NCBI RefSeq assembly: GCF_017743935.1
Contig: NZ_JAGHRE010000002.1
Coordinates: 372,001 to 436,000 of the forward strand
DNA from: Tropicibacter sp. R16_0
GTDB lineage: Bacteria; Pseudomonadota; Alphaproteobacteria; Rhodobacterales; Rhodobacteraceae
Length of the DNA: 64,000 nucleotides
Reading direction: 5' to 3'
Translations under genes and position numbers: made by a program
Notes under the pieces: generated by a model
Seen by the model: the letters and a program-made list of their open reading frames with translations, nothing else
The model's database searches: none
Told to the model about the DNA's origin: nothing
Shown here: positions 6,396 to 41,227 of the stretch, one piece after another
How the letters are laid out: every line of letters begins with the position of its first letter
Position numbering within the stretch: position 1 is the stretch's first letter

Positions 6396-6489
6396 GCTCA
6401 TTATCCTTTCCGGTTTTCGCCTCGGCGGGGGTCTCGACGCGGATGCGCCAACCGGCGGACTTATCAGGGATGTCTCCCCCAACAGGCCC

Positions 6490-6508
6490 AAACCCCGCCT
6501 GCGGGTTT
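6490..6508 (-). terminator. Small hairpin after olsA / in the rpsB leader
   Basis: AAACCC and GGGTTT form a 6-bp stem around a seven-base GC-rich loop, just beyond the olsA stop codon. Because the rpsB promoter lies upstream of it, the same hairpin falls at the start of the rpsB leader RNA. It could be a weak olsA terminator or a leader structure. Confidence 0.35.
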
Positions 6509-6518
6509 GAATGGCGCG

Positions 6519-6547
6519 CGTATAGTCCAGCTTTTACTGGGGCGCAA
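6519..6547 (-). promoter_or_regulatory. Candidate sigma-70-type promoter for rpsB-tsf
   Basis: The minus strand has TTGCGC, a 17-base spacer and TATACG. The -35 box lies inside the last codons of olsA and the -10 box just past its stop. Predicted transcription would start near 6512, giving a leader of about 117 bases before rpsB. Confidence 0.5.
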
Positions 6548-17344: not shown

Positions 17345-17434
17345 GGAGAGGTGCCGGAGTGGTCGAACGGGGCGGTCTCGAAAACCGTTGTGGGTGCAAG
17401 CCCACCCAGGGTTCGAATCCCTGTCTCTCCGCCA
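17345..17434 (+). tRNA. tRNA-Ser (anticodon CGA)
   Basis: A 90-base class II tRNA. The acceptor stem GGAGAGG pairs with TCTCTCC, the discriminator is G and CCA is encoded. The anticodon loop reads CTCGAAA with CGA at 17379-17381, reading UCG serine codons. A long variable arm (TGTGGGTGCAAGCCCACC) and the T-loop GGTTCGAATCC are present, as expected for serine tRNA. Confidence 0.97.
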
Positions 17435-17537: not shown

Positions 17538-18464
17538 CTAGCGCAATTCGGCCGTTGCCTTCTGCATCGCCGTGATCAAGGCGTCGCGTCGCGCCGACAG
17601 TTCCGCCTGCGTTTGACCGCCTGCCTCGTGATTGACCCCGTCGATCAATTGCGCGGCGATGTCCGGTGTCAGATGGATTTGCCCCAGGTCATCCCACCAG
17701 CCATTGAACGTGTCGGTGAAGTGATCGCAAAACGCCTGAAGACCGCCCTCGCCCGCGCCCAGGTTGAACAGCATCGTGGGGCCCATGGCGGCCCACCGCA
17801 GGCCGGGACCGGCCCACATGGCTTTGTCCACGTCCTCGACCGACGCAACCCCCTGGATCACCAGGTTGATCGCCTCGCGCCACACTGCCGCCTGCAACCG
17901 GTTGGCTACATGGCCCGGCACTTCCTTGTTCACGCGGATGGTCGTCTTGCCAACACTGGCATAGAACCGCTCGGCCGCGTCGACAACACCCGGCGCGGTC
18001 TTGTCATTTCCCATCACCTCGACCAGCGGGATAAGATGCGGTGGGTTGAAGGGATGTCCCAACACCATGCGCGACGGATCGGTCCAGCCGCCCTGCATCT
18101 GGCCAAGCGTCAGCCCGGAAGCGGAACTTGCCAGCACCGCATCCGCCCCCAGCACCGGCTCGATTTCAGCAAAGAGCGCGTGTTTGACGGGCAGTCTCTC
18201 AGGCACGCTTTCCTGGACGAACCCTGCGCCATCGACCGCCTCGGGCGCCGAGGAGTGAAAGCTGACCGCTTCCGGATTGCCGTTTTTCGTCAATCCCAAT
18301 TCGGTCATCGTGGGCCAGGCCATTTCGACATAGTCGCGCACGCGCTTTTCGCTGTCCGGCGCGGGATCGAAAACCGCAACAGAGCGGCCAGACGCCAGAA
18401 ACAAGGCGGTCCAACTCGCACCGATTACACCACCGCCCAAGGACGCAGTATGAGAAAACTCCAT
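17538..18464 (-). CDS. 3-hydroxyacyl-CoA dehydrogenase-fold enzyme, carnitine 3-dehydrogenase-like
   Basis: A 308-residue NAD-dependent dehydrogenase. The nucleotide-binding motif is SLGGGVIGASW near the N-terminus, followed by the family blocks FVQESVPERLPVKHALF, VLGHPFNPPHLIPLVEV and KEVPGHVANRLQAAVWREA, and the later GPGLRWAAMGPT. This block set is shared with L-carnitine 3-dehydrogenases and L-gulonate dehydrogenases, which oxidise a beta-hydroxy acid to a beta-keto acid. A BKACE enzyme, which cleaves beta-keto acids, is in the same operon, so oxidation of carnitine or a similar compound is likely but not proven. Start overlaps the preceding gene (ATGA). Confidence 0.82.
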   Translation of the reverse strand: MEFSHTASLGGGVIGASWTALFLASGRSVAVFDPAPDSEKRVRDYVEMAWPTMTELGLTKNGNPEAVSFHSSAPEAVDGAGFVQESVPERLPVKHALFAEIEPVLGADAVLASSASGLTLGQMQGGWTDPSRMVLGHPFNPPHLIPLVEVMGNDKTAPGVVDAAERFYASVGKTTIRVNKEVPGHVANRLQAAVWREAINLVIQGVASVEDVDKAMWAGPGLRWAAMGPTMLFNLGAGEGGLQAFCDHFTDTFNGWWDDLGQIHLTPDIAAQLIDGVNHEAGGQTQAELSARRDALITAMQKATAELR

Positions 18465-19204
18465 CAGAACAATCCGGGGTTGAGGGGGGACGCGGCCGTC
18501 ATGCCGCCATCCACCGTGAACATTTGACCGCTGGCAAAACCGGCCTCGTCTGACGCAAGCCAAACCGCCATTGCCGCAATATCGGCAGGCTGCCCAAAGC
18601 GGCGCACCGGATGGCGCCTGAGCGCATCGGCGCGGGCAGCCTTGTGGTCACCGGCCAAATCGAACCCTGCCTCGAGCATCCCAGTGTTGATCCACCCCGG
18701 ACAGATTGCATTGCACCGAATGTCTGGCCCGTGATCCACTGCGATCGAACGGGTCAGCCCATGCACAAAGGCTTTGGACGCGTTGTAAAGCGCCATGGAG
18801 GGATCGGCATGGTTGCCCGAAATTGATCCGATGTTGATGATCGAACTACCCTTGGGCATAAGCGGAATGAAGGCGCGGCACATGTTGAACACGCCACGAC
18901 AATTGGTGCCGATAACTGCGTCCCAATCCGCGTCCGTGCTGTCAGCGACTGTCTTTTCGACCTGAACCCCGGCGTTGTTGACCAAGACGTCCGTGCCGTC
19001 GGTGATAGACGCCAGGTCTTGGACTGCTTGAGGATCGGTCACATCCAAGTTGTACCAGATGATGCTCTGCTCCAACCCGTCCGGACGGTCACCCCGCCCA
19101 CAGGTGGTGACTGCGGCCCCTGCGGCTGCAAAGGCATCGACGATACCGCGGCCGATCCCTTGCCTACCGCCTGTCACAAACGCTCGTTTTCCTGCCAATC
19201 GCAT
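18464..19204 (-). CDS. Short-chain dehydrogenase/reductase (SDR) 2
   Basis: A 246-residue classical SDR. It has TGGRQGIG at residues 11-18, the NNAG motif (LVNNAGVQ), the catalytic serine in NIGSISG, and YNASK with the catalytic Tyr and Lys. It ends in a DGG motif (TVDGGMTA). Substrate unknown. Start chosen at MRLAGKRAF because it overlaps the stop of the aldehyde dehydrogenase gene (ATGA) and begins the SDR core. It belongs to the seven-gene minus-strand operon. Confidence 0.88.
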   Translation of the reverse strand: MRLAGKRAFVTGGRQGIGRGIVDAFAAAGAAVTTCGRGDRPDGLEQSIIWYNLDVTDPQAVQDLASITDGTDVLVNNAGVQVEKTVADSTDADWDAVIGTNCRGVFNMCRAFIPLMPKGSSIINIGSISGNHADPSMALYNASKAFVHGLTRSIAVDHGPDIRCNAICPGWINTGMLEAGFDLAGDHKAARADALRRHPVRRFGQPADIAAMAVWLASDEAGFASGQMFTVDGGMTAASPLNPGLF

Positions 19205-20622
19205 CAGTGCGCCACCATCACATGTCGGATCACTGTATAGGCATCGAGCGCATAAACGCTCATGTCGCAGCCGGTTCCCGAGGATTTCATCGCCGCCCAG
19301 GGCATTTCCGGCGTGGCCACGCCGTGGGTGTTCACCCACGTAAATCCGTATCGCAATTTCGACGACATGCGCATCGCCCTCCCCGTGTTGTTGGTCCAGA
19401 CTGATGAGGCCAGACCGTATGGCCCCCCGTTGGCGATTTTCAGTGCTTCGTCTTCGTCCGAGAAGCGCGAGATGGTCACCACCGGTCCGAATATCTCGCT
19501 ACAGGCGGCCTCTGCCGTGTTGTCCACATCCGCCAGGACCGTGGGTTCATAAAAGTACCCCGGCCCCTCGATGCTCTTGCCGCCTAAGACAACCGTGCAG
19601 CTGTCTCGTGCCCGGTCCACGAAACCTGCTACCGTGTCCCGTTGCGTGGCTGAAACCAGCGGCCCCATCTCGGTCCCGTCAGCTCGCGGCGCACCAACCT
19701 TGATCTGGCTCACCTGATCCACGATGGCGGCGACCACCTTGTCGTATACCGCGTCCGCGACCATGATCCGACAGGGTTGCGCGCAATCCTGGCCCGCGTT
19801 GAAGAACGACCCATAGCGAACGGTTTCCGTAACCGCGTCTATGTCGGCGTCATCAAAGACGATCACGGGCGCTTTGCCGCCCAATTCCAGATGAACGTGA
19901 CGGATCTGGCGCGCCGCTGCCTTCATTGCTTCGGATCCCGTGGCGCCAGAACCCGTGATCGAAATCGCCTCGGCCCTAGGATCGTTTATCATCTGGTCCC
20001 CAACCTGCCTGCCGATCCCGTGCAGGACATTCACAACACCCTTTGGCGCGACGGATGCGATCAACTCAGCAGCCTTCAGCGTCGACAGCGGCGTCATTTC
20101 AGACGGTTTGAGCGTCACGGGGCACCCCGCCGCCAAGGGGGCAGCCAGCTTCCACGCGGCCATCATCAGCGGGTAGTTCCATGGCGCGATCGCCGCAACC
20201 GGCCCAACCGGATCGCGCCGGATCATGCTGGTATGACCGGCCACGTATTCCCCCGCAGCCACCCCGGTCATGGTGCGCGCGGCGCCGGCGAAGAACCTGA
20301 AGGTGTCCAGCGTCAGGGGCGTTTCATCCTCAAGCGCCGAGGGCCATGGTTTGCCGACATCAAGGCTTTCAAGCTCGGCCAGCTCCTCGATGTTGTCCGT
20401 CAGAACCTGTGCGATACCCCCCAGCAGTTCGGAACGCTCTGCCGGGCTGGTTTGGCCAAATGTCTCGAACGCGTCCTGTGCCGCGGCCATGGCCGCCTGC
20501 GTCTGCTCCGACGAAGCGGACCGGACGGCACAGATCTCTTCACCCGTGGCCGGGTTCATGACCGGGATCTCCGGTCCCTCACCCTCGACCAGTTCGCCAT
20601 TGATCAGCAGATTGGTTTGCAT
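19204..20622 (-). CDS. Aldehyde dehydrogenase (aminobutyraldehyde/betaine-aldehyde type)
   Basis: A 472-residue NAD(P)-dependent aldehyde dehydrogenase. It has APWNYPLMMAAWKLAPAL-type active-site framing (APWNYP), LKPSEMTPLS, the glutamate in HLELGGKAP and the catalytic cysteine in GQDCAQPC, then EIFGPVV. The general look is of enzymes that oxidise amino- or trimethylammonio-aldehydes such as 4-aminobutyraldehyde. A role in turning an intermediate aldehyde into a betaine-type acid would suit the operon; this is inference. The ATG at 20622 was preferred because GGGGGA lies five bases upstream. Confidence 0.85.
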   Translation of the reverse strand: MQTNLLINGELVEGEGPEIPVMNPATGEEICAVRSASSEQTQAAMAAAQDAFETFGQTSPAERSELLGGIAQVLTDNIEELAELESLDVGKPWPSALEDETPLTLDTFRFFAGAARTMTGVAAGEYVAGHTSMIRRDPVGPVAAIAPWNYPLMMAAWKLAAPLAAGCPVTLKPSEMTPLSTLKAAELIASVAPKGVVNVLHGIGRQVGDQMINDPRAEAISITGSGATGSEAMKAAARQIRHVHLELGGKAPVIVFDDADIDAVTETVRYGSFFNAGQDCAQPCRIMVADAVYDKVVAAIVDQVSQIKVGAPRADGTEMGPLVSATQRDTVAGFVDRARDSCTVVLGGKSIEGPGYFYEPTVLADVDNTAEAACSEIFGPVVTISRFSDEDEALKIANGGPYGLASSVWTNNTGRAMRMSSKLRYGFTWVNTHGVATPEMPWAAMKSSGTGCDMSVYALDAYTVIRHVMVAH

Positions 20623-20635
20623 GGTTTCCCCCATT

Positions 20636-21571
20636 TCAGAACGCGACCTGATCGCCCCCCTTCAACCCAAGACGCTGACGCGCCTCGGCTGGCGTGGCGA
20701 CGGTCAGCCCCAGATTTTCGATGATCGTGCGGATCTTGGTGACCTGCTGAGCGCTTGAGACCGCTTTTTCGCCCGGCCCGATGTAAAGGCTGTCCTCCAT
20801 CCCGACGCGGACATTACCCCCCAACAACCCGCTTTGAGTGGTAAAGGGGATCTGGTGGCGCCCGGCGGCCAGAACCGACCACTCATAGTCTTCGCCAAAT
20901 AGCTTGTTGGCGATGGTGTGCATGTGCATGAGGTTGTCCAAATCGGCACCCACGCCACCAAGGATGCCAAACACCATCTGCACAAAGATCGGCCCCTCGA
21001 TCCATCCCTGATCCAAGATCCACGCAAGGTTATAGAGATGGCCCAGGTCGTAGCATTCGAACTCGAACCGGGTGCCGTGCCCCTGCCCCAGTTCCTTGAT
21101 GCAATATTCGATGTCCGCGAACGTATTGCGAAAGATGAAATCGCGGGTCATGTCCAGGAACTCGGGTTCCCAGTCGTGTTTCCAATTGCTGTATTTGTCC
21201 TTCATCGGGAAGATGCCGAAGTTCATCGAACCGATGTTCATACTAGCCATTTCCGGGCTGGCACGGGTGGCCGCGCGCAGACGTTCCTCGCGCGTCATGC
21301 CAAGGCCACCGCCGGTTGAGACATTCATGACCGCGTCGGTGGCCTGTTTGATACGCGGTAGAAACTCCATGAAAAGATCCGGATCGGGATCCGGTTTGCC
21401 GGTTTCCGGATCGCGCGCATGCAGGTGAATGATCGAGGCCCCGGCCTCTGCCGCTTCGATGCTGGCCTGCGCGATCTCGCTGGGTGTGATCGGCAGATGC
21501 TCGGACATGGTCGGCGTGTGAATGCCACCAGTGGGCGCGCAGGTGATGATGACGGATTTTTGCTTGGCCAT
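20636..21571 (-). CDS. BKACE family (DUF849) beta-keto acid cleavage enzyme
   Basis: BKACE enzymes condense a beta-keto acid with acetyl-CoA and release acetoacetate plus a new CoA thioester; known substrates include 3-keto-5-aminohexanoate and 3-dehydrocarnitine. The 311-residue protein has ITCAPTGG near the start, the metal-binding histidines in IIHLHARD (49 and 51), and the late glutamate in RVGMEDSLY. These match the zinc site of the family. With the carnitine-dehydrogenase-like gene in the same operon, 3-dehydrocarnitine or a close analogue is the most likely substrate. SDR1 lies three bases upstream. Confidence 0.9.
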   Translation of the reverse strand: MAKQKSVIITCAPTGGIHTPTMSEHLPITPSEIAQASIEAAEAGASIIHLHARDPETGKPDPDPDLFMEFLPRIKQATDAVMNVSTGGGLGMTREERLRAATRASPEMASMNIGSMNFGIFPMKDKYSNWKHDWEPEFLDMTRDFIFRNTFADIEYCIKELGQGHGTRFEFECYDLGHLYNLAWILDQGWIEGPIFVQMVFGILGGVGADLDNLMHMHTIANKLFGEDYEWSVLAAGRHQIPFTTQSGLLGGNVRVGMEDSLYIGPGEKAVSSAQQVTKIRTIIENLGLTVATPAEARQRLGLKGGDQVAF

Positions 21572-21574
21572 TGG

Positions 21575-22369
21575 TCAGAGCCTCATCTGCTGTACTTGTG
21601 CCGACAGGCCACCGTCCAGAACCCACAGCTGGCCACTGGCATAGCGCGCCTCGTCCGAGGCCAGCCAGTTCACGAGGTTGGCGATGTCTTCGGGCGTGCC
21701 ATAGGTGCGCATCGGATGAACATCGCGCACAGCCTGTTGCAGTTGCTCGATGTTCTGTCCGCCGCCGCCAGAACCATCGCCGTCAAAAAAGCTCTGCAAC
21801 ATCGGCGTGTCGATATAGCCCGGACAGATCGCATTCACCCGGATGCCTTCGGGGCCGTGATCGCATGCCATGGCGCGGGTCAACGCATGCACCGCCCCCT
21901 TGGTGGCGCAATAAGCAGCCAGACCGGGGTCGGCAATGAACCCATCATAGCTGCCAAAGTTGATGATGCTGGCGCTGGTGCCGGATTTGGCCGCCGCGCG
22001 CATCAGCGGCAGCGCATATTTCGACGTCAGAAACGTGCCGGTGCAATTCACTGCAAATGATCGGTTCCAATCATCCAGAGTGGTCTCTTCGATGGTCTTT
22101 TCGATCTCGATCCCCGCCGCGTTGACGAGGATGTTCAGCTTGCCTGCCTCGGCCTGCACCTGTTCCATCGCTGCGATGACCGCGGCCTCATCCGCCACGT
22201 TCATCTGAACGAACCGGCTGCCGTCATCATCATGCGCTGCCAGCGAGCCCTCGGGCGTCAGGTCGGCGGCATAGACCGCGGCACCCTCAGCCAGGAACCG
22301 GGCCACAATAGCCCGGCCGATGCCGCCCCGTCCGCCGGTGACAAAGGCGGTCTTTCCTTCAAGTTTCAT
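21575..22369 (-). CDS. Short-chain dehydrogenase/reductase (SDR) 1
   Basis: A 264-residue classical SDR with TGGRGGIG near the N-terminus, LVNAAG, a catalytic serine region NFGSYDG and the YCATK active site, ending in VLDGGLSA. A glycine-rich insertion (DGDGSGGGGQN) sits before the C-terminus. The ATG at 22369 was chosen because AAGGA lies eight bases upstream; ATG codons at 22375 and 22378 are closer to that site. The start lies inside the end of the choline-sulfatase-like gene, so translation is probably coupled. Confidence 0.87.
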   Translation of the reverse strand: MKLEGKTAFVTGGRGGIGRAIVARFLAEGAAVYAADLTPEGSLAAHDDDGSRFVQMNVADEAAVIAAMEQVQAEAGKLNILVNAAGIEIEKTIEETTLDDWNRSFAVNCTGTFLTSKYALPLMRAAAKSGTSASIINFGSYDGFIADPGLAAYCATKGAVHALTRAMACDHGPEGIRVNAICPGYIDTPMLQSFFDGDGSGGGGQNIEQLQQAVRDVHPMRTYGTPEDIANLVNWLASDEARYASGQLWVLDGGLSAQVQQMRL

Positions 22370-23906
22370 GGTCATCATCCTTGTTCAGCGGTGGAAAGCG
22401 ATAGCGCGCGGCGGCCACCGTCCAATCCATGTGATTACGTACATATTGCTGGCTGGCGTCCGAGGGCGGGTTGTAGTCCCAGGCCTCTCCTGCGCCTGCC
22501 TCCATCGCGGCATGCAGCGCGCGGCGGGATTTCTGCGTGGCGATCACATCTGCGCGCAGCGCGTCACTGTTCCAGCGCTCGGCCACCTCGGCGGCAAATC
22601 GGGTCGCGGGCTCGGCATAGGCCGGATCGTCCGCGACGTTGACACGTTCCATCGGATCGCGCGCCAGATCATAGAGCTGCGGCGGGTCCACATCGCAGTG
22701 GATGTATTTCAGTGTCCCGCGTCGGATCATGAACACCGGTGCAGGCGTCATCTCGGCGCAGTATTCGCCGATGGCCTCATCTACCGGATCGGGCTCACCT
22801 CGGGCCAGGGGCATCAGGCTGCGGCCATCCACCGGCTCGCCCAACATGGTGCTGTCCCCTCCGGCCATCTCCAGCAAAGTCGGCAGCATATCGACCAGAG
22901 AGCACGCGTTTTGAGCAGTGCCCCGCACGACACCCGGCCCGGCCATGATCAAGGGCACGCGGGCGGAGTGTTCGAAAAAGTTCATCTTGTACCACAACCC
23001 GCGCTCGCCCAGCATGTCGCCATGATCGGCTGTGACGATGATCACCGTGTTGTCCAGCTCTCCAGTGTCTTCGAGGGCCTTGACCATCTCTCCGACCTTG
23101 CTGTCGAAATAGCTGACATTCGCCAGATAGGCGCGGCGGGCGCGGCGCACCTCTTCTTCGGTCAACGGCACATAGCTGGCCTCGATCCCGTCCATCACCC
23201 GGCGCGAGAACGGGTCTTGCTCTTCGGGCGACAGCACCACCTCGGGCATGTCGATGTCATCGTCGGAATAGAGTTCCCAGAACTCGGGCTTGGCCACATA
23301 GGGATCATGCGGATGTATGAAGCTTGCCACCATGGCAAACGGCGCATCATCCCCCGACGCCCGATCCCTGCCCCGGTCGATCAACCACCGCCGCGCGGCA
23401 AAGCCGACCTCGTCATCATAGTCGGTCTGGAACGTGGCCACGGCAACGCCACTTTCCTTGACCGTCTGCATGTTGTGATACCACTTGTCTATGCGCTCGT
23501 CCGGGGCCTCCCAATCCGGGGTCCAGGCAAAATCCGCCGGGTAGATGTCGGTTGTCACGCGATCCTGAAACCCATGTTTCTGATCAGGTCCCACAAAATG
23601 CATCTTGCCTGACAGACAGGTGCGATAGCCAAGCGCCTTGAGGTAATGCGCAAAGGTCGGCACGCTGGCCCGAAATTCGGACGCGTTGTCATAAGCCGCG
23701 ATCCTGCTGATCAACTGCCCTGACATAAAGGCAAACCGCGACGGTGCACACAGCGGTGCATTGCAATAGGCCGCATCAAACCGCATCCCGCGTGCGGCCA
23801 GTGCGTCCATATGCGGGGTCTTGGCAACCCGGTGGCCGTAGGCTCCGCAAAAATGCGGGGCCAATTGGTCGGCCATGATGATGACGATGTTGGGGCGTCT
23901 CGGCAC
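22359..23906 (-). CDS. betC: Choline-sulfatase-like sulfatase
   Basis: A 515-residue cytoplasmic sulfatase with no signal peptide. The sulfatase motif CAPSR is at residues 53-57; Cys53 would be converted to formylglycine. N-terminal IIMADQLAPHFCGAYG, the IHPHDPY block, TADHGDMLGERGLWYKMNF and a C-terminal tail (QYVRNHMDWTVAAARY) are characteristic of BetC, which releases choline from choline-O-sulfate. The start codon is GTG with a strong GGAGGA site. Its neighbours are not the usual betIBA genes, so a related sulfate ester is also possible. Confidence 0.88.
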   Translation of the reverse strand: MPRRPNIVIIMADQLAPHFCGAYGHRVAKTPHMDALAARGMRFDAAYCNAPLCAPSRFAFMSGQLISRIAAYDNASEFRASVPTFAHYLKALGYRTCLSGKMHFVGPDQKHGFQDRVTTDIYPADFAWTPDWEAPDERIDKWYHNMQTVKESGVAVATFQTDYDDEVGFAARRWLIDRGRDRASGDDAPFAMVASFIHPHDPYVAKPEFWELYSDDDIDMPEVVLSPEEQDPFSRRVMDGIEASYVPLTEEEVRRARRAYLANVSYFDSKVGEMVKALEDTGELDNTVIIVTADHGDMLGERGLWYKMNFFEHSARVPLIMAGPGVVRGTAQNACSLVDMLPTLLEMAGGDSTMLGEPVDGRSLMPLARGEPDPVDEAIGEYCAEMTPAPVFMIRRGTLKYIHCDVDPPQLYDLARDPMERVNVADDPAYAEPATRFAAEVAERWNSDALRADVIATQKSRRALHAAMEAGAGEAWDYNPPSDASQQYVRNHMDWTVAAARYRFPPLNKDDDHET

Positions 23907-23997
23907 GTGCTCCTCCCTTGTTTCAAGCCGATGATCTGACCTCAGCGCCCCAAAGGCGGTGGTTCAAATCGCATCGGCTTGACCCGCAAGGAAAACA

Positions 23998-25137
23998 TCA
24001 GCCAGCCGCCCGCCGGTACGCATCCAGCACCAGCCCGTGAAAATGGTGCACCGCGTGTTCCGACATGCCGGACCCGTCCGGATCGTTCACGATTCGACCA
24101 CTGGTGAAGGCCGGCGTGCTCATCCCCTTTTGAACGCTTTCAACGATGTTGATGTCCTCGACCTGCAATACCTCGTCCAGATAGCGGATCGATTCCAGTT
24201 CCGCCTCGTTGGGGGTCTTCTCCTCAAGGAAGAAGTCATAGGTTTCGAACGTCCGGTCGGGACCTGCGGGGATGATGTTGAGGATGATCATCGACGACCG
24301 GCCCGGATAACGCATGATGCAGGTGTTGGGCCACAGCCACCACACGGCGTGGGTTTTCACCGTCGCATTGGACACGTCGTAGGCGCTGTTGGGTGTGTTG
24401 CCCGCGTCCGCCATATGGCTGGAGTAGATGCCATGGGTGGTCACCTTGTAGGTGTCCATATCAACCAGATCGCAGAAATCCTTGTGCGCCGTAGGACAAT
24501 GATAACATTCCAGAAAATTGTCCACCACATTCTTCCAGTTCGACTTGATGTCATAGGTCAGTCGATGGGCAAAGGTCAGCTCTTCGATGTCTGGGGCCCA
24601 ATGGCGAATTTCGGTTTCCAGATCGCCTGACAACTCGGCCAGCGGAGCGGCGTCGGGATCAAGGTTCACGTAGACAAAGCCACAGAACTCTTCGACCTGA
24701 ACCTCATCCAGGCAGATCTCTTTCGGCTCAAAGCCCTCCAGGTTTTCGGTGTGCGGCGCGCGCACCAATTGGCCATCCAGTTTGTAGACCCAGGCGTGAT
24801 AGGGGCACATGATGCGGGTGGTGTTGCCCTCGCCCGACAAAAGCTCGTGGGCGCGGTGTTTGCACACGTTGTAGAACGCGCGCAGGACGCCTTCGCGGTC
24901 ACGGACCACGGCAATGGGCTGACCGGCGATTTCGATGGTGGTGTAGCTGCCGGGTTCGCGCAGCTTTTCGACATGGCACACCCATTGCCAGGTCTTGGCA
25001 ATGATCTGTTGCAGATCAACGTTGTGCCAGCCGCTTTCGGTATAGGCCTCGGCCCGCAGCGACAGCGATTTGGATGGGTTTTCGTCCCATCCCTTGGCGA
25101 TTTCGACAAACTGTTTGGCGTCGGGCAATTCCGTCAT
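23998..25137 (-). CDS. Rieske non-haem iron oxygenase, quaternary-amine type
   Basis: A 379-residue oxygenase alpha subunit. The Rieske cluster ligands are visible: CKH at 92-94 and CPYH at 111-114. The mononuclear iron site has His213 and His218 in DNFLECYHCPTAH. The residue bridging the two metal sites is Glu210 rather than the usual Asp, as reported for carnitine monooxygenase CntA. Relatives demethylate glycine betaine (GbcA), hydroxylate choline or split carnitine. No reductase gene is nearby, although these enzymes need one. The ATG at 25137 was chosen over 25194 because AAGGGG lies just upstream. Confidence 0.88.
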   Translation of the reverse strand: MTELPDAKQFVEIAKGWDENPSKSLSLRAEAYTESGWHNVDLQQIIAKTWQWVCHVEKLREPGSYTTIEIAGQPIAVVRDREGVLRAFYNVCKHRAHELLSGEGNTTRIMCPYHAWVYKLDGQLVRAPHTENLEGFEPKEICLDEVQVEEFCGFVYVNLDPDAAPLAELSGDLETEIRHWAPDIEELTFAHRLTYDIKSNWKNVVDNFLECYHCPTAHKDFCDLVDMDTYKVTTHGIYSSHMADAGNTPNSAYDVSNATVKTHAVWWLWPNTCIMRYPGRSSMIILNIIPAGPDRTFETYDFFLEEKTPNEAELESIRYLDEVLQVEDINIVESVQKGMSTPAFTSGRIVNDPDGSGMSEHAVHHFHGLVLDAYRRAAG

Positions 25138-25262: not shown

Positions 25263-26276
25263 TCAAACCCGCTTTCGATGCATCGGCCAGGCGCGAAACT
25301 CGAACGGTACGCGCCCCTCGACCCGATCCTCGCGCGGGGCAAGGCCGAAGCGTGCGCGATAGGCGCGACTGAAATGGACCTGGCTGGCGAAACCGGACGC
25401 CAATGCCACCTCGGCCAAGGGGATTTCGGTTTGGGTTACCAACCCACGCGCGCGATCAAGGCGGATGTCACGGTAGTAGACCTTGGGCGACTTCTGAACA
25501 TAGGTGGTGAACAACCGGTTCAACTGCCGCTGTGATATGTCGACCGCCTGGCAGATTTCGGGAATGGACAGCGGCTGCTCAAGGTTTTGTTCCATGATCG
25601 AAATCGAGCGTCTGACCACATCTGGCGCGCGCAAGCCGATGGGTTCGGCCTGCCCCGGGCTTTGCATCGCGCCGACCGGACGCAAGCTTTGGTGAAACAC
25701 ATAGCGCGCGGCACCATTGGCCAGTTCAGCCCCATGAGTGCCTTGTATGATATGCAAGGCAAAATCCGCGACAGCACCGCCGCCGCAACATGTGATCCGG
25801 TTGCCATCAAATACGAACAGCTCTTCGCTGGTTTCCACATCGGGAAACAATTCGATCATCGCGTCGATGTGTTCGTAATGCACGGTGGCGCGACGATCCT
25901 TGAGCAGACCAGCCTCGGCCAGGATGAAGGCGCCGGTGTCAATGGCCCCAACCGTCGCCCCTTTTCTGGCCCACCGCCAAAGCGCGCTGTGGACCGGCGT
26001 GGAATTGTGCCGCTCGGGCGTCCAACTGGCCGAGACGATCACGATGTCGAACGCCCGATCCTGCAGGTCGGACAACTTCACGGTGTCGATGCTCATGCCG
26101 TTGCTGGCCAGACAGGTCCCGCCGTCTTGCGAGCAGACATCCCACCGGAAACGCGTTGCACCATCCAGATAATTCGCCGCCCGAAACGGGTCGATGAATC
26201 CTGCTGTGGCCGCCATGTTGAAATTCGGCGTGACCAGAATCAACAGGTGTATGGGCTTGTCCGAGGTCAGGGTCAT
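25263..26276 (-). CDS. GlxA-family (AraC-type) transcriptional regulator
   Basis: A 337-residue regulator with an N-terminal DJ-1/PfpI-like domain (LLILVTPNFNMAATAGFIDPFRAANYL) and a C-terminal AraC double helix-turn-helix (PLSIPEICQAVDISQRQLNRLF; LAEVALASGFASQVHFSRAYRARFG). Close relatives GbdR and CdhR sense glycine betaine or carnitine and activate catabolic operons. It sits directly upstream of the Rieske gene on the same strand, 125 bases away. The start is uncertain: neither 26276 nor the longer option at 26354 has a good ribosome binding site; 26276 fits the family better. Confidence 0.85.
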   Translation of the reverse strand: MTLTSDKPIHLLILVTPNFNMAATAGFIDPFRAANYLDGATRFRWDVCSQDGGTCLASNGMSIDTVKLSDLQDRAFDIVIVSASWTPERHNSTPVHSALWRWARKGATVGAIDTGAFILAEAGLLKDRRATVHYEHIDAMIELFPDVETSEELFVFDGNRITCCGGGAVADFALHIIQGTHGAELANGAARYVFHQSLRPVGAMQSPGQAEPIGLRAPDVVRRSISIMEQNLEQPLSIPEICQAVDISQRQLNRLFTTYVQKSPKVYYRDIRLDRARGLVTQTEIPLAEVALASGFASQVHFSRAYRARFGLAPREDRVEGRVPFEFRAWPMHRKRV

Positions 26277-27482: not shown

Positions 27483-29903
27483 TCAGGCTTTGACCCGGGC
27501 GTTTTCGGGATCATAAAGGCATGGGTCCGCCACGCTAGCCGGAACCCGCTGTCCGATCACGTCCACGATCAGATCATCGTGTCCCTTGGCGAACACAGGC
27601 GTGACAAATGCCATGGCGATGTTCTGCCCCACGCGGTGCCCCCAATCGCCCGAGGTCACGGTGCCGACCACCTGATCGCCCACCATCACCGATGCCCCGG
27701 CATGGGCGGGTGCTGTTTGGCTGTCCAACAGCAATGTAACGCGTTGCCGGTTCGGACCATTGGCCTGGCGCGCGACCAAGGCCTCCCGCCCGATGAAATC
27801 GCCTTTGTCCAGCTTGACGAAGCGCTCCAACCCAGTCTCAAAGGGGTCGAATTCGGTCTGAAGCTCGGCTTTCCAGTGCAAATAGCCCTTCTCCAAACGC
27901 ATGGACTCAACCGCTCGACTGCCAAACAGCGTAAGACCATGTGCCTTACCCGCATGACGCAGCGCCAGATAGGCCCCATACAGCTGATTGTTCGGCACGT
28001 GAATTTCATAGGCCAATTCGCCAGAAAAGCTGACCGCCATGACCACCGCTGGTGCGATGCCAATGAACGCCTGGCGCACGGACAGCCATGGGAAGGCGGC
28101 AGACGACCAATCCCCGCGCGAAACCGCCGACAGCACGTCGCGCGCCTTGGGGCCTGCCAAAACCAGGATCGTGTGTTCATTGGTCAGCGAGCGGATCTGG
28201 ACATCCTCATCCTCACGCAGATGCGCCTGCAGCCAATCCATGTCATGCCATTCCGACGCCGCGGCCGAGCCGTACCAGACGCGCCCATCGGGCAGATTGG
28301 CGATTGTAGCTTCGGATTTGACCATGCCATGGTGGTTGAGCAGATAGGCCAGCCCTACCCGGCCCTCTTTCTTCGGCACGCGACCACAGATCATACGATC
28401 CAGGAAGCTGTGAACATCTGCGCCCGTCAGTTCAAATCGGTTGAAGCCATTGACCTCGGTCAGGCCCACGCCGGTTTGTACGGCAGCAACTTCCTTGGCA
28501 ACAACGTCAAAGGTCTCGTTGAACCGGAATGTGTGTGTCTCGGTAAACTCGGGATCGGGCTTGATATAATCCATCCGTTCCCAGCCGTTGACGACACCGA
28601 ATTCTGCCCCTTCAGCCGCCAAGACCGGTGTCAGCGGGGTTGTCTTAATAGGCCGCCCGGCGGGACGGTGTTCATGGGGGAAATGGAACCGGAATTCGTT
28701 CTGATAGTCCTCGATCGCCTTGAGCGCGGTCAGTTCCACATTGCCATGTCCGGTGAACCGGCGCGGGTCGAGGCACCAGGTGTCGTAACACGCCTCGCCA
28801 TGCACGATCTGTTGCGCGAGCAACCAACCGTGACCACCGCCTTCGCCAAGACCGGCGCGCAAACCAATGATACAAAACGCATTTCTCTTACCAGGGATCG
28901 GACCCACGAGGGGCGCGCCGTCGATGGTATATGTGATCGGGCCATTTACGACCGTGTGAATGCCGACCTCAGCCAGTGCAGGCATCCGTGCGATAGCCCC
29001 CTCAAGAACATCTGTCACCCGGTCCAGATCATCTGGACACAACGCGTTGACGAAATTCGGGTCGATCCCGTCCATGCCCCAGGTTTTGCAATCTTGCTCA
29101 TAGAACCCCACCAGCAGACCGTTCTTTTCCTGCCGCGAGTAATAGTCGCTGATCGGGCAACGGATCAGCGGCATGCGGTGGCCTGCCTCCTTGATCGCCG
29201 GGATCTCTTCGGTCAGGAAATACTGATGTTCCATCGAGGCGACAGGATGATGCACGCCCATCATGGCGCCCACCTCATTTACCCTGTAACCGCAAGCATT
29301 TACGACAATTTCCGCATGCACGTCACCCTTGGGCGTAGACACGATCCAGCTGTCATCCTTGAGCTGTTTAAGCGCGGTGACCGGCGTATTTCGATGCACC
29401 TCGGCCCCGGCTTTGCGGGCGCGGCGGGCCAGCGCCTGGCACAGCTGAGCGGGGTCGATATCACCATCCAACGGGTCCCATAGACCTCCCACCAGGTTGT
29501 CGGTGGCCAACAGAGGGTGACGGCGCGCGCATTCTTCGGCGTCGATCACTTCGAAATGAACATCCATCCCCCGCGCCATTGAGGCGAAGTGGCGATAGCC
29601 ATCCATCTGCGCATGCGTGTTGGCCAAGCGGATACCGCCATCGCCGTGGTGGTAGTTGATTGGATACTCAGGATCATCCGCCAACTCTTTGTAAAGGTTG
29701 ATGGAATGCGTTTTCAGGCCAACCATTGTCTGGTTCATGCCGAAGTTGGTCACCTGCGCGGCGGAATGCCAAGTGGTGCCCGATGTCAGCTCGTCACGTT
29801 CGAGCAACATGACATCTGTCCACCCTTCCTGGGTGAGATGATAGATCGTTGAGCACCCGGCGATCCCACCACCGATTACCACCACCCGAGCCGTCTTGCG
29901 CAT
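27483..29903 (-). CDS. FAD-dependent oxidoreductase with GcvT domain (dimethylglycine/sarcosine dehydrogenase-like)
   Basis: An 806-residue two-domain enzyme. The N-terminal DAO-type FAD domain opens with VVVIGGGIAGCSTIYHL and has His46 in TTWHSAAQ, the position used for covalent FAD in dimethylglycine dehydrogenase. From about residue 430 a folate-binding GcvT domain follows (FNRFELTG, AGPKARDVL, SMRLEKGYLHW, GREAL). Such enzymes oxidise N-methyl groups and load the released one-carbon unit onto tetrahydrofolate. It converges with the CDF-like gene with one base between stops. It would act downstream of glycine betaine demethylation. Confidence 0.88.
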   Translation of the reverse strand: MRKTARVVVIGGGIAGCSTIYHLTQEGWTDVMLLERDELTSGTTWHSAAQVTNFGMNQTMVGLKTHSINLYKELADDPEYPINYHHGDGGIRLANTHAQMDGYRHFASMARGMDVHFEVIDAEECARRHPLLATDNLVGGLWDPLDGDIDPAQLCQALARRARKAGAEVHRNTPVTALKQLKDDSWIVSTPKGDVHAEIVVNACGYRVNEVGAMMGVHHPVASMEHQYFLTEEIPAIKEAGHRMPLIRCPISDYYSRQEKNGLLVGFYEQDCKTWGMDGIDPNFVNALCPDDLDRVTDVLEGAIARMPALAEVGIHTVVNGPITYTIDGAPLVGPIPGKRNAFCIIGLRAGLGEGGGHGWLLAQQIVHGEACYDTWCLDPRRFTGHGNVELTALKAIEDYQNEFRFHFPHEHRPAGRPIKTTPLTPVLAAEGAEFGVVNGWERMDYIKPDPEFTETHTFRFNETFDVVAKEVAAVQTGVGLTEVNGFNRFELTGADVHSFLDRMICGRVPKKEGRVGLAYLLNHHGMVKSEATIANLPDGRVWYGSAAASEWHDMDWLQAHLREDEDVQIRSLTNEHTILVLAGPKARDVLSAVSRGDWSSAAFPWLSVRQAFIGIAPAVVMAVSFSGELAYEIHVPNNQLYGAYLALRHAGKAHGLTLFGSRAVESMRLEKGYLHWKAELQTEFDPFETGLERFVKLDKGDFIGREALVARQANGPNRQRVTLLLDSQTAPAHAGASVMVGDQVVGTVTSGDWGHRVGQNIAMAFVTPVFAKGHDDLIVDVIGQRVPASVADPCLYDPENARVKA

Positions 29904-30021
29904 GTTCTGCCTCCGTTAATCTGGACAGAGAAAACGCCTTGATGGCAGGCAGGGTCAACGGCATCACCGCAGGCTTTGGGAACAGTACAGAAAGATTTGA
30001 CTTTGCGAAATCTTTCAGGCG

Positions 30022-31635
30022 TCACACTCGATGAAGTTCGCCATTCAAATAACTGTCTCGCAACGAAAACTTTTGAATCTTTCCCGAACCCGTCAAGGGA
30101 AATGAATTCACCTTACACCAAACCACAGGCGTCTTGATCGCGGCCAAAGCCTCTCGGCAATGCGCTTTGAGCGCATCGGGGTCCACATCAAACCCTTCGG
30201 CGGGTCGGATAAAGGCGGCCACGACCTCTCCCCAAGTATCATCCGGCAGGCCCACAACGGCCACCTCTGCGACCGAGGCATGTGTGAGTAGAACGTTCTC
30301 GATCTCGGCCGGAAACAGGTTCTCGCCGCCGCGAATGATCATCTCTTTGACCCGGCCTGTGACGGCCACATAACCGCAGGCGTCCATCGTGCCCAAATCC
30401 CCGGTGTGCAGCCATCCATCCGTGTCGATCGTCGCAGCTGTTGCTTCGGGATTGTCGTTGTATTTCAACATGGTGCAGTACCCGCGCACGCAGATCTCGC
30501 CCACCTCACCGATGGCTACAATCCCATTGTCCTCCGTCGACCGGATCGACACCTCGGTCTGTGGCATGGGCTGCCCCACGGTTGTTGCGATCACCTCCAG
30601 CGGTTCGGATCCGTGGTGCTGTGTCACCAAGGGGGAGCACTCGGTCTGTCCGTAAACGGTTTGAAAAACGCACCCCAGCGAGGACGTGATCTTTTCAACC
30701 AGATCAGGGGCCACCATCGACCCGCCGGACATAAAGGTCTCAAGCGCGCTCAGATCAAAGGATCGGTGCTTCATCACCTCAAGCATGGCAACCACCATCG
30801 TGGGCACCCCACCGCTGGCGGCGATCTTTTCGCGTTCGAACACTTCGAGCACCGGTTCCGGGGCGAACATCTTGATCAGGAACAAGGGCGATTTCGACTG
30901 CAACGCCCCCAACACGGCCATTCCGCAGCCTGCGGTATGAAAGAGCGGCATCATCGTGGCCCACGGCGCACCTGGTGTGGCACCGGTGCGTTTGGCATAG
31001 AACCGCGCGTTGTTGGTGATCCCGCGATGGCCCAGAACTGCCCCCTTGGGAAAGCCCGTGGTGCCTGAGGTATATTGGATCTGCGCCGCGTCATCTGCGG
31101 CAACTGTCGGTAATTGTGGCGAAATCTGGCCTTGCGCCAATAGCGCATCCCAGTCTTCAAGGTCGACCACGTCACGCAAATTCGGCAAACCCTGAATCGC
31201 CTGGGCAGCGATATCCGCCATCGGATTGCCCCGAAACGATGCGGTCCGAAACAAGGCAACCGACCGCGATTGTTCAAGAACATAGGCAAGTTCCTGGGCC
31301 TGATAGGCAGGATTGGCGGTCACCAGCGTCAAACCGGCAAGCGCACAGGCGTATTCCAGCAAAACCCATTCGGGGATGTTTGGGGCCCAGACACAAATCC
31401 GCTCGCCCGGATGATACCGTGTCGACAGGGCCAAGGCGATCCGCTCGGAATCCCGGTAAAGCGCGCCATAGGTCCATCGACGTCCGTTGGCGCCCGTCTC
31501 GTCCACTTCGACAAGGGCCAATTGATCCGGCGAGCCTTGCGCAACCTCTCGCAAAAGGCCGCCGACGGTGGTCTCAAGGATCACCTCGTCGTCTTGGATC
31601 GGAAATTCGGATCGTGTCAGTGCAATGTCATACAT
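30022..31635 (-). CDS. AMP-forming acyl-CoA synthetase
   Basis: A 537-residue adenylating enzyme. It has the P-loop YTSGTTGFPKG at residues 188-198, YGQTECSP, HTGDLG and the lysine near the end (GSGKIQKF). It activates a carboxylic acid to its CoA thioester. The class resembles medium/long-chain fatty acyl-CoA ligases, but betaine-type acids activated before degradation are possible given the setting. The start at 31635 has GGGGGG eight bases upstream; a longer frame upstream does not fit the family. Confidence 0.87.
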   Translation of the reverse strand: MYDIALTRSEFPIQDDEVILETTVGGLLREVAQGSPDQLALVEVDETGANGRRWTYGALYRDSERIALALSTRYHPGERICVWAPNIPEWVLLEYACALAGLTLVTANPAYQAQELAYVLEQSRSVALFRTASFRGNPMADIAAQAIQGLPNLRDVVDLEDWDALLAQGQISPQLPTVAADDAAQIQYTSGTTGFPKGAVLGHRGITNNARFYAKRTGATPGAPWATMMPLFHTAGCGMAVLGALQSKSPLFLIKMFAPEPVLEVFEREKIAASGGVPTMVVAMLEVMKHRSFDLSALETFMSGGSMVAPDLVEKITSSLGCVFQTVYGQTECSPLVTQHHGSEPLEVIATTVGQPMPQTEVSIRSTEDNGIVAIGEVGEICVRGYCTMLKYNDNPEATAATIDTDGWLHTGDLGTMDACGYVAVTGRVKEMIIRGGENLFPAEIENVLLTHASVAEVAVVGLPDDTWGEVVAAFIRPAEGFDVDPDALKAHCREALAAIKTPVVWCKVNSFPLTGSGKIQKFSLRDSYLNGELHRV

Positions 31636-31704
31636 CGTCCAGTCCCCCCGTTTGTCAGGTGAGTATAGACGGAAATTGCGGTACCCCCGAAACAATCTGT
31701 GAAT

Positions 31705-31735
31705 CAAAAAAGGCCGAGCAACGATGGCCCGGCCT
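31705..31735 (-). terminator. Rho-independent terminator of the one-carbon module
   Basis: On the minus strand GGCCGGGC, a seven-base loop and GCTCGGCC (one mismatch) are followed by six T residues. It lies just beyond the methyltransferase stop codon and separates that operon from the acyl-CoA synthetase gene. Confidence 0.85.
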
Positions 31736-31757
31736 TTCTTTACATGAAAACAGTCGC

Positions 31758-32819
31758 TTACGCGCGGCGGCGACGGCCACCGGCACGGCCACCTCGGCCA
31801 CGACCTTCCTCGCCTGCTGCGGCGGGCGGCTTGTTGAACTTGATCCAGTCACCACCGTGCGGGTCGTTGTTGGTCAGGAAGTTGGCGGCGCGGATGGCCT
31901 CCATCTCCTTGCCGGCTTTCGGCTTGGTCGAACCCAGACCGAACATCTGGCAGAACGCCTCGTCGTCCATGTCTGCAGGCAGGATGATGCCCGACGCTTC
32001 AACCTCGGCGCGCTTTTCCGCGATCTTCTTGGGACCGATGGGCAGAGCCACCGGGTTCATGATCGCAGACGTCATGCCAGCACCCATTGCCATCGGCAGG
32101 AAGGCGTTGTTGATGCCGTGACGGTTGGGCAGGCCGAACGAAATGTTGGACGCACCGCAAGTGGTGTTCACACCCAGTTCCTCGCGCAGGCGACGGACCA
32201 GAGCAAAGACCTGCAGGCCGGCAGTTGCCATCGCGCCCACGGGCATCACCAGCGGGTCCACCACGATGTCATGAGCCGGAATGCCGAAATCGGCAGCGCG
32301 TTCCACGATCTTCTTGGCAACGGCGAAACGCACGTCGGGGTCTTCGGAAATGCCAGTGTCATCGTTCGAGATTGCAACAACCGGAACGTTGTACTTTTTG
32401 ACCAGCGGCAGGATCTCTTCCAAGCGCTCTTCTTCACCGGTGACCGAGTTCAGCAGCGGGCGGCCTTCGGCCACTTCCAGACCCGCCTCAAGCGCGCCGG
32501 GAACCGAGCTGTCAATGCAGAGCGGAACGTCGACCAGGCCCTGAACCAGCTCGACGATCTTTTTCATCAGCGGCGGCTCGGTCTCGTTCGGGTTGGGGTT
32601 CGAGTTGTAAACCACGCCCGCGTTGATATCGAGAACGGTTGCGCCCGCCAGAACCTGAGCAACGGCGTCTTTTTCAACAGTCGAAAAATCACCCGCTTCC
32701 AGTTCGGCAGCCAGTTTTTTGCGGCCCGTGGGATTGATACGTTCGCCAATCACGCAGAACGGCTGATCAAAGCCGATCACTGCCGTTTTGGTTTTGCTCT
32801 CTACGATGGTCTGCGTCAT
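31758..32819 (-). CDS. Methyltetrahydrofolate:corrinoid methyltransferase family protein
   Basis: A 353-residue pterin-binding TIM-barrel protein of the MtgA/AcsE type. Family blocks are CVIGERINPTGRKKLAAELE, GATVLDINAG, LCIDSS, GRPLLNSVTGEEER and TCGASNISFGLPNR. Such enzymes move methyl groups between tetrahydrofolate and a corrinoid protein. The last 17 or so residues are almost all Gly and Arg (GRGRGGRAGGRRRRA), an RNA-binding-like tail that is not part of the catalytic fold. It is the last gene of the module, nine bases after the reductase gene. Confidence 0.88.
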   Translation of the reverse strand: MTQTIVESKTKTAVIGFDQPFCVIGERINPTGRKKLAAELEAGDFSTVEKDAVAQVLAGATVLDINAGVVYNSNPNPNETEPPLMKKIVELVQGLVDVPLCIDSSVPGALEAGLEVAEGRPLLNSVTGEEERLEEILPLVKKYNVPVVAISNDDTGISEDPDVRFAVAKKIVERAADFGIPAHDIVVDPLVMPVGAMATAGLQVFALVRRLREELGVNTTCGASNISFGLPNRHGINNAFLPMAMGAGMTSAIMNPVALPIGPKKIAEKRAEVEASGIILPADMDDEAFCQMFGLGSTKPKAGKEMEAIRAANFLTNNDPHGGDWIKFNKPPAAAGEEGRGRGGRAGGRRRRA

Positions 32820-32828
32820 GTCGGCCTC

Positions 32829-33758
32829 TTATGCGGGGTTTACGGGGCGAGTGCTCTCGCCGCCATTGTTGATGGCCCAGGTGGCATTGGTCTTGATGCC
32901 GCCGAGCGGGAAGAAGTGGACCTTCTCGATCTGGAAGTCCGGGTTAGCAGCCTTGTGCGCGGCAAGATCGGTGATGATCTCGTTCGGCTCATGCGGCAGC
33001 AGCAGTTTGGTTACGTCCTTGGCACGCTTCTGCAGAACCTTGAGCGACGGGCCAACACCACAGGCGATGGCGAACTTGATCATCGTCTGCAGCTTTGCAG
33101 GACCGGCGATACCGATATGCACCGGCAGGTTCATGCCGCGCTCGGACAGCTCGTTGACCCAGTCGATGACGGGCTGTGCTTCGAAGCAGAACTGAGTGGC
33201 CAGGGCCATCTGCGCGTCGGTGCGCTTGGAAAACTCCAGTTTCCAGTCCAGCGCCGCATAGGTGTTGGCACGGCCGCCCTTGGGGTCGATGTCCAGGTTC
33301 GGCTCGGGGTGGCCCGCGACGTGCAGGTTGGTAAAGCCCGCCTGATCGAACAGACCGGTTTCCAGCAGCTGCATCGAGTCGCTGAAATCGCCATGCGGCT
33401 CGGCCACGCCACCGGCCAGGATCAGGCCCTGCTTGACATCGGCCTCGCCCTGATAGCGCGAGATCCAATCAGCCAGCGTCGCCTTGTCCTTGATGATACG
33501 CGCCGGGAAATGCGGCATCGCGTCAAAGCCTTCGTCCTTCAGGCGCTTGGCGGTTGCCACCATGTCCTCGATGGGCGTGCCTTCGATGTGGGCGATGTAG
33601 ACGCGGGTATCTGCGGGCAGCAGCGCGCGGAAGTCTTCGACCTTGGCGGCGGTGCGCGGCATCACCTCGATCGAGTAACCCTTGAGGAACGCCTCGACGG
33701 TGGGGTTCACCGGCCCGTTTTCGACCGTGTCGCGTTTTTTGAAATTCAGCAAAGCCAT
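32829..33758 (-). CDS. Methylenetetrahydrofolate reductase family protein (MetF-like)
   Basis: A 309-residue TIM-barrel protein of the MetF family. Visible blocks include TRVYIAHIEGTPIEDM near the start, the flavin-binding type region GGVAEPHGDFSDSM, NLHVAGHPE, and TQFCFEAQPVIDWV, which is typical of MetF. MetF interconverts 5,10-methylene- and 5-methyl-tetrahydrofolate. Here it probably works in the oxidative direction, feeding methyl groups from methylated amines into C1 oxidation (inference from context). The ATG at 33758 has a GGGAGG site six bases upstream. Confidence 0.87.
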   Translation of the reverse strand: MALLNFKKRDTVENGPVNPTVEAFLKGYSIEVMPRTAAKVEDFRALLPADTRVYIAHIEGTPIEDMVATAKRLKDEGFDAMPHFPARIIKDKATLADWISRYQGEADVKQGLILAGGVAEPHGDFSDSMQLLETGLFDQAGFTNLHVAGHPEPNLDIDPKGGRANTYAALDWKLEFSKRTDAQMALATQFCFEAQPVIDWVNELSERGMNLPVHIGIAGPAKLQTMIKFAIACGVGPSLKVLQKRAKDVTKLLLPHEPNEIITDLAAHKAANPDFQIEKVHFFPLGGIKTNATWAINNGGESTRPVNPA

Positions 33759-33784
33759 CACGGCCTCCCATACTGATGTGGGGC

Positions 33785-34081
33785 TCATGCCCATCCGTCT
33801 TTGGCGATCAGGGCCTTGATGCGCTCCTGATCGTATTCCGCTTCCAGACGCAGGGCTTCTGCCTCGGCCACTTCGGCGGGGTCGCCGTCGACAGCATAGG
33901 GGGCAGCCTTGCGCCATTCGGCCAGATAGGCATCAGCGTCCTTGGCGTTCACCTTCATCGCGGCACGGTCGATGGCTTGTTCGAACCGTTCCTCAAGTTG
34001 ACGCTTTGCCCCACGGCGGCCTTTGCCGACGATGACTTGGGCTGGGATGTCGCGCCAGTAGACGATGGTGACGTCGGGCAT
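33785..34081 (-). CDS. Virulence-factor family small protein (PF13769-like)
   Basis: A 98-residue protein. It starts MPDVTIVYWRDIPAQVIVG and has GRRGAKRQLEERFEQAIDRAAM and a Glu-rich C-terminus. This matches the small family named 'virulence factor' that accompanies MetF-like and methyltransferase genes in marine alphaproteobacteria. No activity is established. It has a good AGGAGG ribosome binding site and is the first gene of the three-gene one-carbon module. Confidence 0.8.
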   Translation of the reverse strand: MPDVTIVYWRDIPAQVIVGKGRRGAKRQLEERFEQAIDRAAMKVNAKDADAYLAEWRKAAPYAVDGDPAEVAEAEALRLEAEYDQERIKALIAKDGWA

Positions 34082-41185: not shown

Positions 41186-41227
41186 CGAAATTTGGCTTTC
41201 TTGGCTGATGCGAAAGGGGTGCACGGG

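Follow-up and report, generated by a model that had tools for sequence, protein, structure and literature searches.

In a 64,000-nucleotide stretch of DNA from Tropicibacter sp. R16_0 (the window), seven enzyme genes on the minus strand (17538-25137) and a regulator gene upstream of them are read here, with moderate confidence, as a regulated operon for breaking down a carnitine-like hydroxy-betaine, which could also arrive as a carboxylated sulfate ester. What appears to be new is the pairing of a diverged choline-sulfatase-type enzyme with a carnitine-like catabolic operon, while the families and the kind of pathway are known. The seven enzymes had been listed, in this order and with these families, in an earlier note made from the sequence alone; when the reading frames and junctions were recomputed, all seven genes were open, and Pfam and NCBIfam agreed with the families. 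The regulator had been overlooked. In the direction of reading, the genes are as follows.

25263-26276, minus strand: GlxA/AraC-type regulator (DJ-1/PfpI and HTH_18 domains in Pfam), related to GbdR (GbdR model 248 bits, below its cut-off of 480)
23998-25137, minus strand: group Va-like Rieske oxygenase, terminal oxygenase subunit (Pfam; best solved relative CntA, 6y8j, E 1.5e-72)
22359-23906, minus strand: BetC-like formylglycine sulfatase of a separate clade (Lys142/Trp499 type; residues and tree), GTG start (TIGR03417 705.6 bits, cut-off 433.45)
21575-22378, minus strand: short-chain dehydrogenase 1 (SDR1; Pfam)
20636-21571, minus strand: beta-keto acid cleavage enzyme (BKACE; PF05853 345 bits, cut-off 24.8; NF053538 507 bits, cut-off 430)
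19204-20634, minus strand: aldehyde dehydrogenase (ALDH) of the aminobutyraldehyde/betaine-aldehyde type (NF010000 646 bits, cut-off 615), with a second ATG at 20622
18464-19204, minus strand: short-chain dehydrogenase 2 (SDR2; Pfam), 43% identical to SDR1
17538-18464, minus strand: 3-hydroxyacid dehydrogenase (HCDH; 3HCDH_N/3HCDH), akin to carnitine dehydrogenase and lambda-crystallin

The almost unbroken order with overlaps that the note had described holds for most junctions. From the Rieske gene onward they are a 91-bp gap, a 20-bp overlap (sulfatase/SDR1), gaps of 3 and 1 bp, and two 1-bp overlaps, ALDH/SDR2 and SDR2/HCDH each sharing a single base. Since the junctions from the sulfatase to HCDH are this tight (20-bp overlap to 3-bp gap), these last six genes look co-transcribed, with the Rieske gene set off by its 91 bp. 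The regulator gene precedes the Rieske gene on the same strand at a distance of 125 bp.

The sulfatase clade and its binding tunnel

The solved relative nearest to the sulfatase is SmeBetC, to which we aligned 87 operon-type rows (53 from operons and 34 from genomes of the window's family, Rhodobacteraceae, some genomes occurring in both sets and giving identical pairs in the tree) and 29 canonical control rows, which were the top-scoring ones, a choice that favors uniformity, and had flanks of about 1.5 kb. The formylglycine motif (C54, R58) and the metal and sulfate ligands D14, N75, H104, H201, D296, H297, and K309 are kept in 53/53 operon and 34/34 further rows, as are Glu386 and the Trp129/His145 ammonium clamp in all 87. 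Excerpts of PMC9063841 describe this clamp as holding the ammonium group in SmeBetC and the substrate tunnel as lined by, among others, Trp142 and residues 495-499 of the adjacent subunit; the role of Glu386 in choline sulfatase is taken from an excerpt of PMC5870055.

The tunnel is where the operon-type enzymes depart from this pattern. Position 142 is Lys in 85 of the 87 rows (53/53 operon and 32/34 family rows, the other two having Arg and Ala) and Trp in 29/29 canonical rows, while position 499 is Trp in 86, with Tyr in the remaining one, and Leu in 29/29 canonical rows. Neither Lys142 nor Trp499 occurs in any of the 29 controls, and neither Trp142 nor Leu499 in any of the 87; Gly128Ala and Tyr133Trp are present in all 87. 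Asn498 and Asp500 were dropped as clade markers: they looked distinctive against two references, but canonical sequences vary there. A tree of 92 sulfatase rows, which included 25 of the 53 operon rows, split operon-type from canonical enzymes with a support of 100. In 42 genomes with an operon-type sulfatase (27 with a Rieske ortholog and 15 without), that copy shares 59-86% identity with the window enzyme, and their other copies share 43-49%.

Residues and tree thus place the sulfatase in a clade distinct from BetC, with what the alignment indicates is a changed binding tunnel. The note's description of it as choline-sulfatase-like stands as far as the clamp, Glu386, the formylglycine, the C-terminal choline-sulfatase domain, and the TIGR03417 score are concerned; the enzyme is not simply BetC, a canonical copy of which lies elsewhere in the genome. 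The neighborhoods differ as well. With betI and betA queries verified by profile models, neither gene was found in operon-type sulfatase contexts (0/30 narrow and 0/32 wide, in overlapping sets) or at the Rieske loci (0/80), whereas 21 of 29 canonical BetC loci had them. Because a lysine lies in the tunnel, the alignment suggests an additional negative charge on the substrate; the N-C-C-O-S spacing appears to be kept, which O-sulfocarnitine would fit, as would other carboxylated esters.

The contexts of operon-type sulfatases without a nearby Rieske gene (n = 28: L189-L210, L212-L216, and L220; mean 16.3 kb, shortest 3.8 kb) tie the clade to transporters of the betaine type and, in two genomes, to genes of the carnitine type. 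In six of them (L195, L198, L199, L200, L203, and L220), a binding protein of OpuAC type that belongs to the operon's transporter families lies at most 8 kb from the sulfatase, two of the six being confirmed with Pfam. L195 (genome G151) and L208 (G201) carry a carnitine-type BKACE (81-83% identity to its counterpart in the host genome) together with an acyl-CoA dehydrogenase, a CoA ligase, and a crotonobetainyl-CoA-hydratase-like gene (332 bits, below the model cut-off of 500), three genes that the window operon lacks. The chance of at least two carnitine-type BKACE neighbors among 28 contexts is about 0.006; chance estimates assume contexts of 17 kb in a 4-Mb genome with two copies of ProX and a single carnitine-type BKACE, and treat genomes as independent. 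L206 and L215 carry other genes of the operon, and L199 and L201 have a peptide-type ABC transporter in common.

The gene set in other genomes and standard pathways in the host

Relatives were picked by the Rieske protein alone in a scan of bacterial genomes, of which the best 80 loci were retained (77-97% identity to the window protein; mostly Rhodobacteraceae and rhizobia). The 69 loci in which 7.5 kb or more of sequence follows the Rieske gene serve as the denominator below, 63 have 8.5 kb or more upstream of it, and gene presence was scored by tblastn at identity thresholds that we chose. The comparison of gene order that the note had advised found SDR1, SDR2, and HCDH together in 65 of the 69 loci and all seven enzyme genes in 36. 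Individually, SDR2 was present in 68, the regulator, SDR1, and HCDH in 67 each, BKACE in 57, ALDH in 51, the sulfatase in 49, and a ferredoxin reductase in 14; BKACE, ALDH, and the sulfatase are therefore facultative members of the set. The arrangement also varies: the regulator is downstream and inverted in some loci, three (L052, L066, and L077) have the sulfatase on the upstream side of the Rieske gene, and SDR1 and SDR2 come last in the operon of Roseovarius THAF8. Ten plasmid records carry the Rieske gene, and one of the six examined is a Pseudomonas plasmid, whose version adds a PDR-type reductase, a thioesterase, and a choline-type binding protein. At E 1e-130, a Rieske ortholog was found in 28 of 295 family genomes and, in a sample of the phylum, in 2 of 398, both Rhodobacteraceae.

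Two further arrangements were observed. Genome G072 (L206 and L226) has a split version, with the sulfatase, SDR1, ALDH, SDR2, and HCDH together and the Rieske gene with a transporter on the same contig at a distance of about 180 kb. Labrys sp. WJW (L028) has a minimal one, consisting of the regulator, Rieske, BKACE, and HCDH genes with a ferredoxin-reductase-like open reading frame and a divergent OpuAC-type binding protein; SDR1, ALDH, and an operon-type SDR2 were not found nearby.

The host genome contains five BKACE matches, 13 matches to the Rieske catalytic domain, and three choline-sulfatase matches above the cut-off; 27 stretches match the choline-sulfatase model at E 1e-3. The best choline sulfatase (904 bits) lies in the order betI-betC-betA (betI 207 bits, cut-off 201; betA 842 bits, cut-off 732). 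The third (568 bits; L126, C2:98000-110000, 5675-7354) has Leu at 145 and Pro at 142 and adjoins a betA-like gene of 495 bits, below the betA cut-off. Carnitine catabolism through 3-dehydrocarnitine employs CdhR, carnitine dehydrogenase, BKACE, and a betainyl-CoA thioesterase. In the host, contig C18 ends in a fused carnitine dehydrogenase-thioesterase (L123; 812 bits, cut-off 592), and contig C16 opens with a BKACE and, after it, a GlxA-type regulator; these ends presumably adjoin, which would join the two.

A GlxA/AraC regulator, a 3-hydroxyacid dehydrogenase, and BKACE are common to this route and the window operon; the Pseudomonas plasmid version also has in common with it a related thioesterase and the choline-type binding protein. 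The window operon differs in adding the Rieske enzyme, two SDRs, ALDH, and the sulfatase, and its proteins are only distantly related to the host's own: 47% for the sulfatase and BetC, 34-36% for HCDH and carnitine dehydrogenase, and 32% for BKACE and the carnitine-type BKACE, which is of another subfamily. The beta-hydroxy acid oxidation and BKACE steps of the earlier note are retained as to family, their carnitine-type identity being doubtful. Because canonical bet and carnitine genes sit separately in the same genome, the operon appears to be a parallel, diverged set, and carnitine or choline sulfate as such would be a redundant substrate for it. A plain L-carnitine route was set aside on the same grounds, HCDH and BKACE also falling outside the carnitine models.

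Predicted reactions and competing explanations

The Rieske enzyme is 34% identical to CntA. In CntA numbering, Phe replaces Tyr203 in all 80 rows of the operon set (the window, Pseudomonas MPC6, and 78 of the 80 loci), and Glu205, Cys206, Cys209, Tyr225, and Tyr295 are kept in all of them, as are His213 and Asp323 of the group V core; His208 is kept in 79, and the window has every one of these residues. According to excerpts of PMC7948474, an aromatic residue at 203 marks group Va (carnitine, choline, benzalkonium), which performs C-N cleavage or carbon oxidation and includes the plant choline monooxygenases, Asn marks the group Vb N-demethylases, and CntA Y203F is active. A glycine betaine N-demethylase (GbcA, group Vb) was ruled out by Phe203 in 80/80 rows and by NF058607 (148 bits, cut-off 670). 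The quaternary-amine Rieske enzyme of the earlier note hence survives with its group Va-like residues, and demethylation does not; the enzyme most likely oxidizes the chain, or cleaves the C-N bond, of a quaternary ammonium compound that is not carnitine. The trimethylammonium chemistry that had been proposed is likewise indicated by these residues, by the sulfatase clamp, and by OpuAC-type transporters beside some relatives. Solved relatives of the other enzymes are lambda-crystallin (HCDH), DUF849 structures (BKACE), and the aminobutyraldehyde/betaine aldehyde dehydrogenases 1wnb and 6c43 (ALDH); the SDRs match many.

From these families we infer a substrate, an order of steps, and a product. 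An OpuAC-type ABC importer would take up the compound, and the Lys142-type sulfatase would strip the sulfate from an ester with the spacing of choline sulfate and an anionic branch, O-sulfocarnitine or a close analogue being the simplest candidate. The Rieske oxygenase, with a reductase encoded elsewhere, would oxidize the trimethylammonium compound at its carbon chain, ALDH would handle any aldehyde formed, and the SDRs and HCDH would oxidize or invert hydroxyls, HCDH giving a beta-keto acid. Where present, BKACE would react this acid with acetyl-CoA to give acetoacetate plus an acyl-CoA for a thioesterase to hydrolyze. The thioesterase of the Pseudomonas version (4HBT_2) matches the thioesterase part of carnitine 3-dehydrogenase with 112 bits over a partial model (cut-off 592), which would fit a betainyl-CoA-like product, and it is possible that the pathway ends in glycine betaine.

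Several observations weigh against this carnitine-like scheme. HCDH falls below the cut-offs of both carnitine dehydrogenase models (NF005471, 252 against 414 bits; NF005716, 238.5 against 592), and BKACE passes the model named for 3,5-dioxohexanoate:acetyl-CoA acetone transferase (NF053538), an enzyme with an uncharged substrate, which the host's carnitine-type BKACE does not. BKACE is absent from 12 and ALDH from 18 of the 69 loci, and of 10 genomes with a BKACE-lacking locus, 8 had no BKACE match at E 1e-70 anywhere (3/3 controls matched), so that this BKACE appears not to be obligatory to the pathway. The Rieske pocket differs from that of CntA (F258H, N270M, Y315L, F319L). The window operon has neither a transporter nor a reductase gene; relatives have as redox partners the AndAa-like ferredoxin reductase counted above or the PDR-type reductase of the Pseudomonas plasmid. 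A ProX-type binding protein accompanies only 9 of the 63 Rieske loci with sufficient upstream sequence, and the host's relative of the transporter (63%) lies with ABC-type genes at C11:767996-768937, far from the operon. No OpuAC-type transporter of the families searched was found in 22 of the 28 Rieske-free sulfatase contexts, and the sulfatase of G151 (L180/L195), one of the two beside carnitine-type genes, has Ala142 rather than Lys. Finally, no publication on sulfated carnitine as a metabolite was found, and sulfated betaines yielded one unrelated paper, in a search with subscription journals mostly outside its coverage. Within the same coverage, no publication was found to join these genes by title or abstract, in line with the earlier remark that the combination was unrecognized.

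The strongest competitor, which we regard as possible though clearly the weaker account, has trimethylamine removed first: the Rieske enzyme would cleave the C-N bond, as CntA does, to give trimethylamine and an aldehyde, which ALDH or an SDR would convert; HCDH would then produce an uncharged beta-keto acid, and BKACE acetoacetate and a small hydroxyacyl-CoA. Phe203 and Tyr295 of the Rieske enzyme and the aminoaldehyde/betaine-aldehyde type of ALDH agree with it. So does the BKACE subfamily, which favors a loss of trimethylamine before cleavage. BKACEs have been grouped into those acting on positively charged and those acting on hydrophobic or uncharged substrates (excerpts of PMC4922564), and the window enzyme, above the NF053538 cut-off, probably belongs to the uncharged-substrate group; this match and the low identity to the host carnitine enzymes make cleavage of dehydrocarnitine itself doubtful. 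A BKACE-family enzyme of another pathway, possibly a parallel, takes hydroxylated neutral beta-keto acids (excerpt of PMC6365646). On the other side, the loci without ALDH or BKACE speak against this route too, and the resemblance of the Pseudomonas thioesterase to part of carnitine 3-dehydrogenase would fit a product that retains the ammonium. Neither the operon BKACE nor the host's carnitine-type BKACE has an acid at the equivalent of Glu14 of Kce, which we take to be a specificity position, so this residue was not informative.

An O2-dependent choline sulfate route, in which the sulfatase would free choline, the Rieske enzyme would act as a plant choline monooxygenase, and ALDH would yield glycine betaine, is unlikely. 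The TIGR03417 score, the place of the plant enzymes in group Va (PMC7948474, excerpts), and the betaine-aldehyde type of ALDH are compatible with it, but the tunnel residues Trp142 and Leu499 are replaced in all 87 rows, bet genes were not found in the contexts examined, and betI-betC-betA lies elsewhere in the same genome. HCDH, BKACE, and the SDRs would have to serve another linked step, which leaves the most constant genes (SDR1, SDR2, and HCDH) unexplained.

It is similarly improbable that the sulfatase is a passenger, useful on its own and settled in roseobacters beside a core operon that degrades an unsulfated betaine. Its absence from 20 of the 69 loci, including most rhizobial ones, and its location ahead of the Rieske gene in three are in keeping with such a history. 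At E 1e-185, the operon-type sulfatase was found in 42 of 394 family genomes and in 4 of 385 genomes of the class, two of these outside the family. On the assumption that the 394-genome sample contains the 295 genomes searched for the Rieske gene (genomes among those listed), which span 294 genera, it is present in 22 of 28 Rieske-bearing genomes and in 15 of 267 Rieske-less ones (Fisher 3e-18, kinship ignored). Those 15 favor the passenger explanation; against it, the co-occurrence persists without adjacency, at 7/13 against 15/267 when the 15 adjacent cases are removed (Fisher 9e-6, kinship likewise ignored), and one ProX-type transporter family adjoins both lone sulfatases and some Rieske operons.

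Carrying the hydroxy-betaine reading further, we tentatively suggest that the operon may be part of a system that serves specifically to take up, desulfate, and oxidize a natural carboxylated quaternary ammonium sulfate ester, for example, O-sulfocarnitine, on which the whole "choline sulfatase" clade might act. If so, an unrecognized sulfated nitrogen compound would join the pool consumed by roseobacters and some soil bacteria. The residue comparison shows that the curated choline-sulfatase label covers a clade whose binding tunnel differs, and the operon contributes a group Va-like Rieske enzyme with an altered pocket as well as a diverged pathway that parallels carnitine breakdown. Gonyol, homoserine betaine, hydroxytrimethyllysine, and homocholine were considered as candidate substrates, and nothing here supports them; a literature match to the homarine operon did not point to this gene set.

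Neighboring genes

A minus-strand cluster at 27483-34081, possibly a glycine betaine C1 cluster, adjoins the operon on its upstream side.

27483-29903, minus strand: protein with domains of dimethylglycine/sarcosine dehydrogenases (DAO/GcvT type; Pfam)
31758-32819, minus strand: MtgD-like pterin-binding methyltransferase (NF005719 406 bits, cut-off 259)
32829-33917, minus strand: gene weakly MetF-like (E 0.0023), without a Pfam match
within 27483-34081, minus strand: acyl-CoA ligase (Pfam)
within 27483-34081, minus strand: 98-aa protein of Pfam PF13769

Excerpts of PMC12478193 report that in Ruegeria pomeroyi a pterin-binding MtgD is followed by metF2 and serves glycine betaine demethylation. 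By analogy, the genes upstream of the operon would fit a flow towards glycine betaine; of the 80 Rieske loci, only 2 had a close relative (56-96%) of the dehydrogenase at 27483-29903. Beyond the 3' end of the operon lies a tRNA-Ser gene (17345-17434, plus strand). The window also contains, on the minus strand, genes for a PhoX alkaline phosphatase (34324-36336) and a multihaem c-type cytochrome with doubled CXXCH motifs (39272-41224), and two more sulfatase-family genes at 51867-53444 (plus strand) and 62983-63981 (minus strand).

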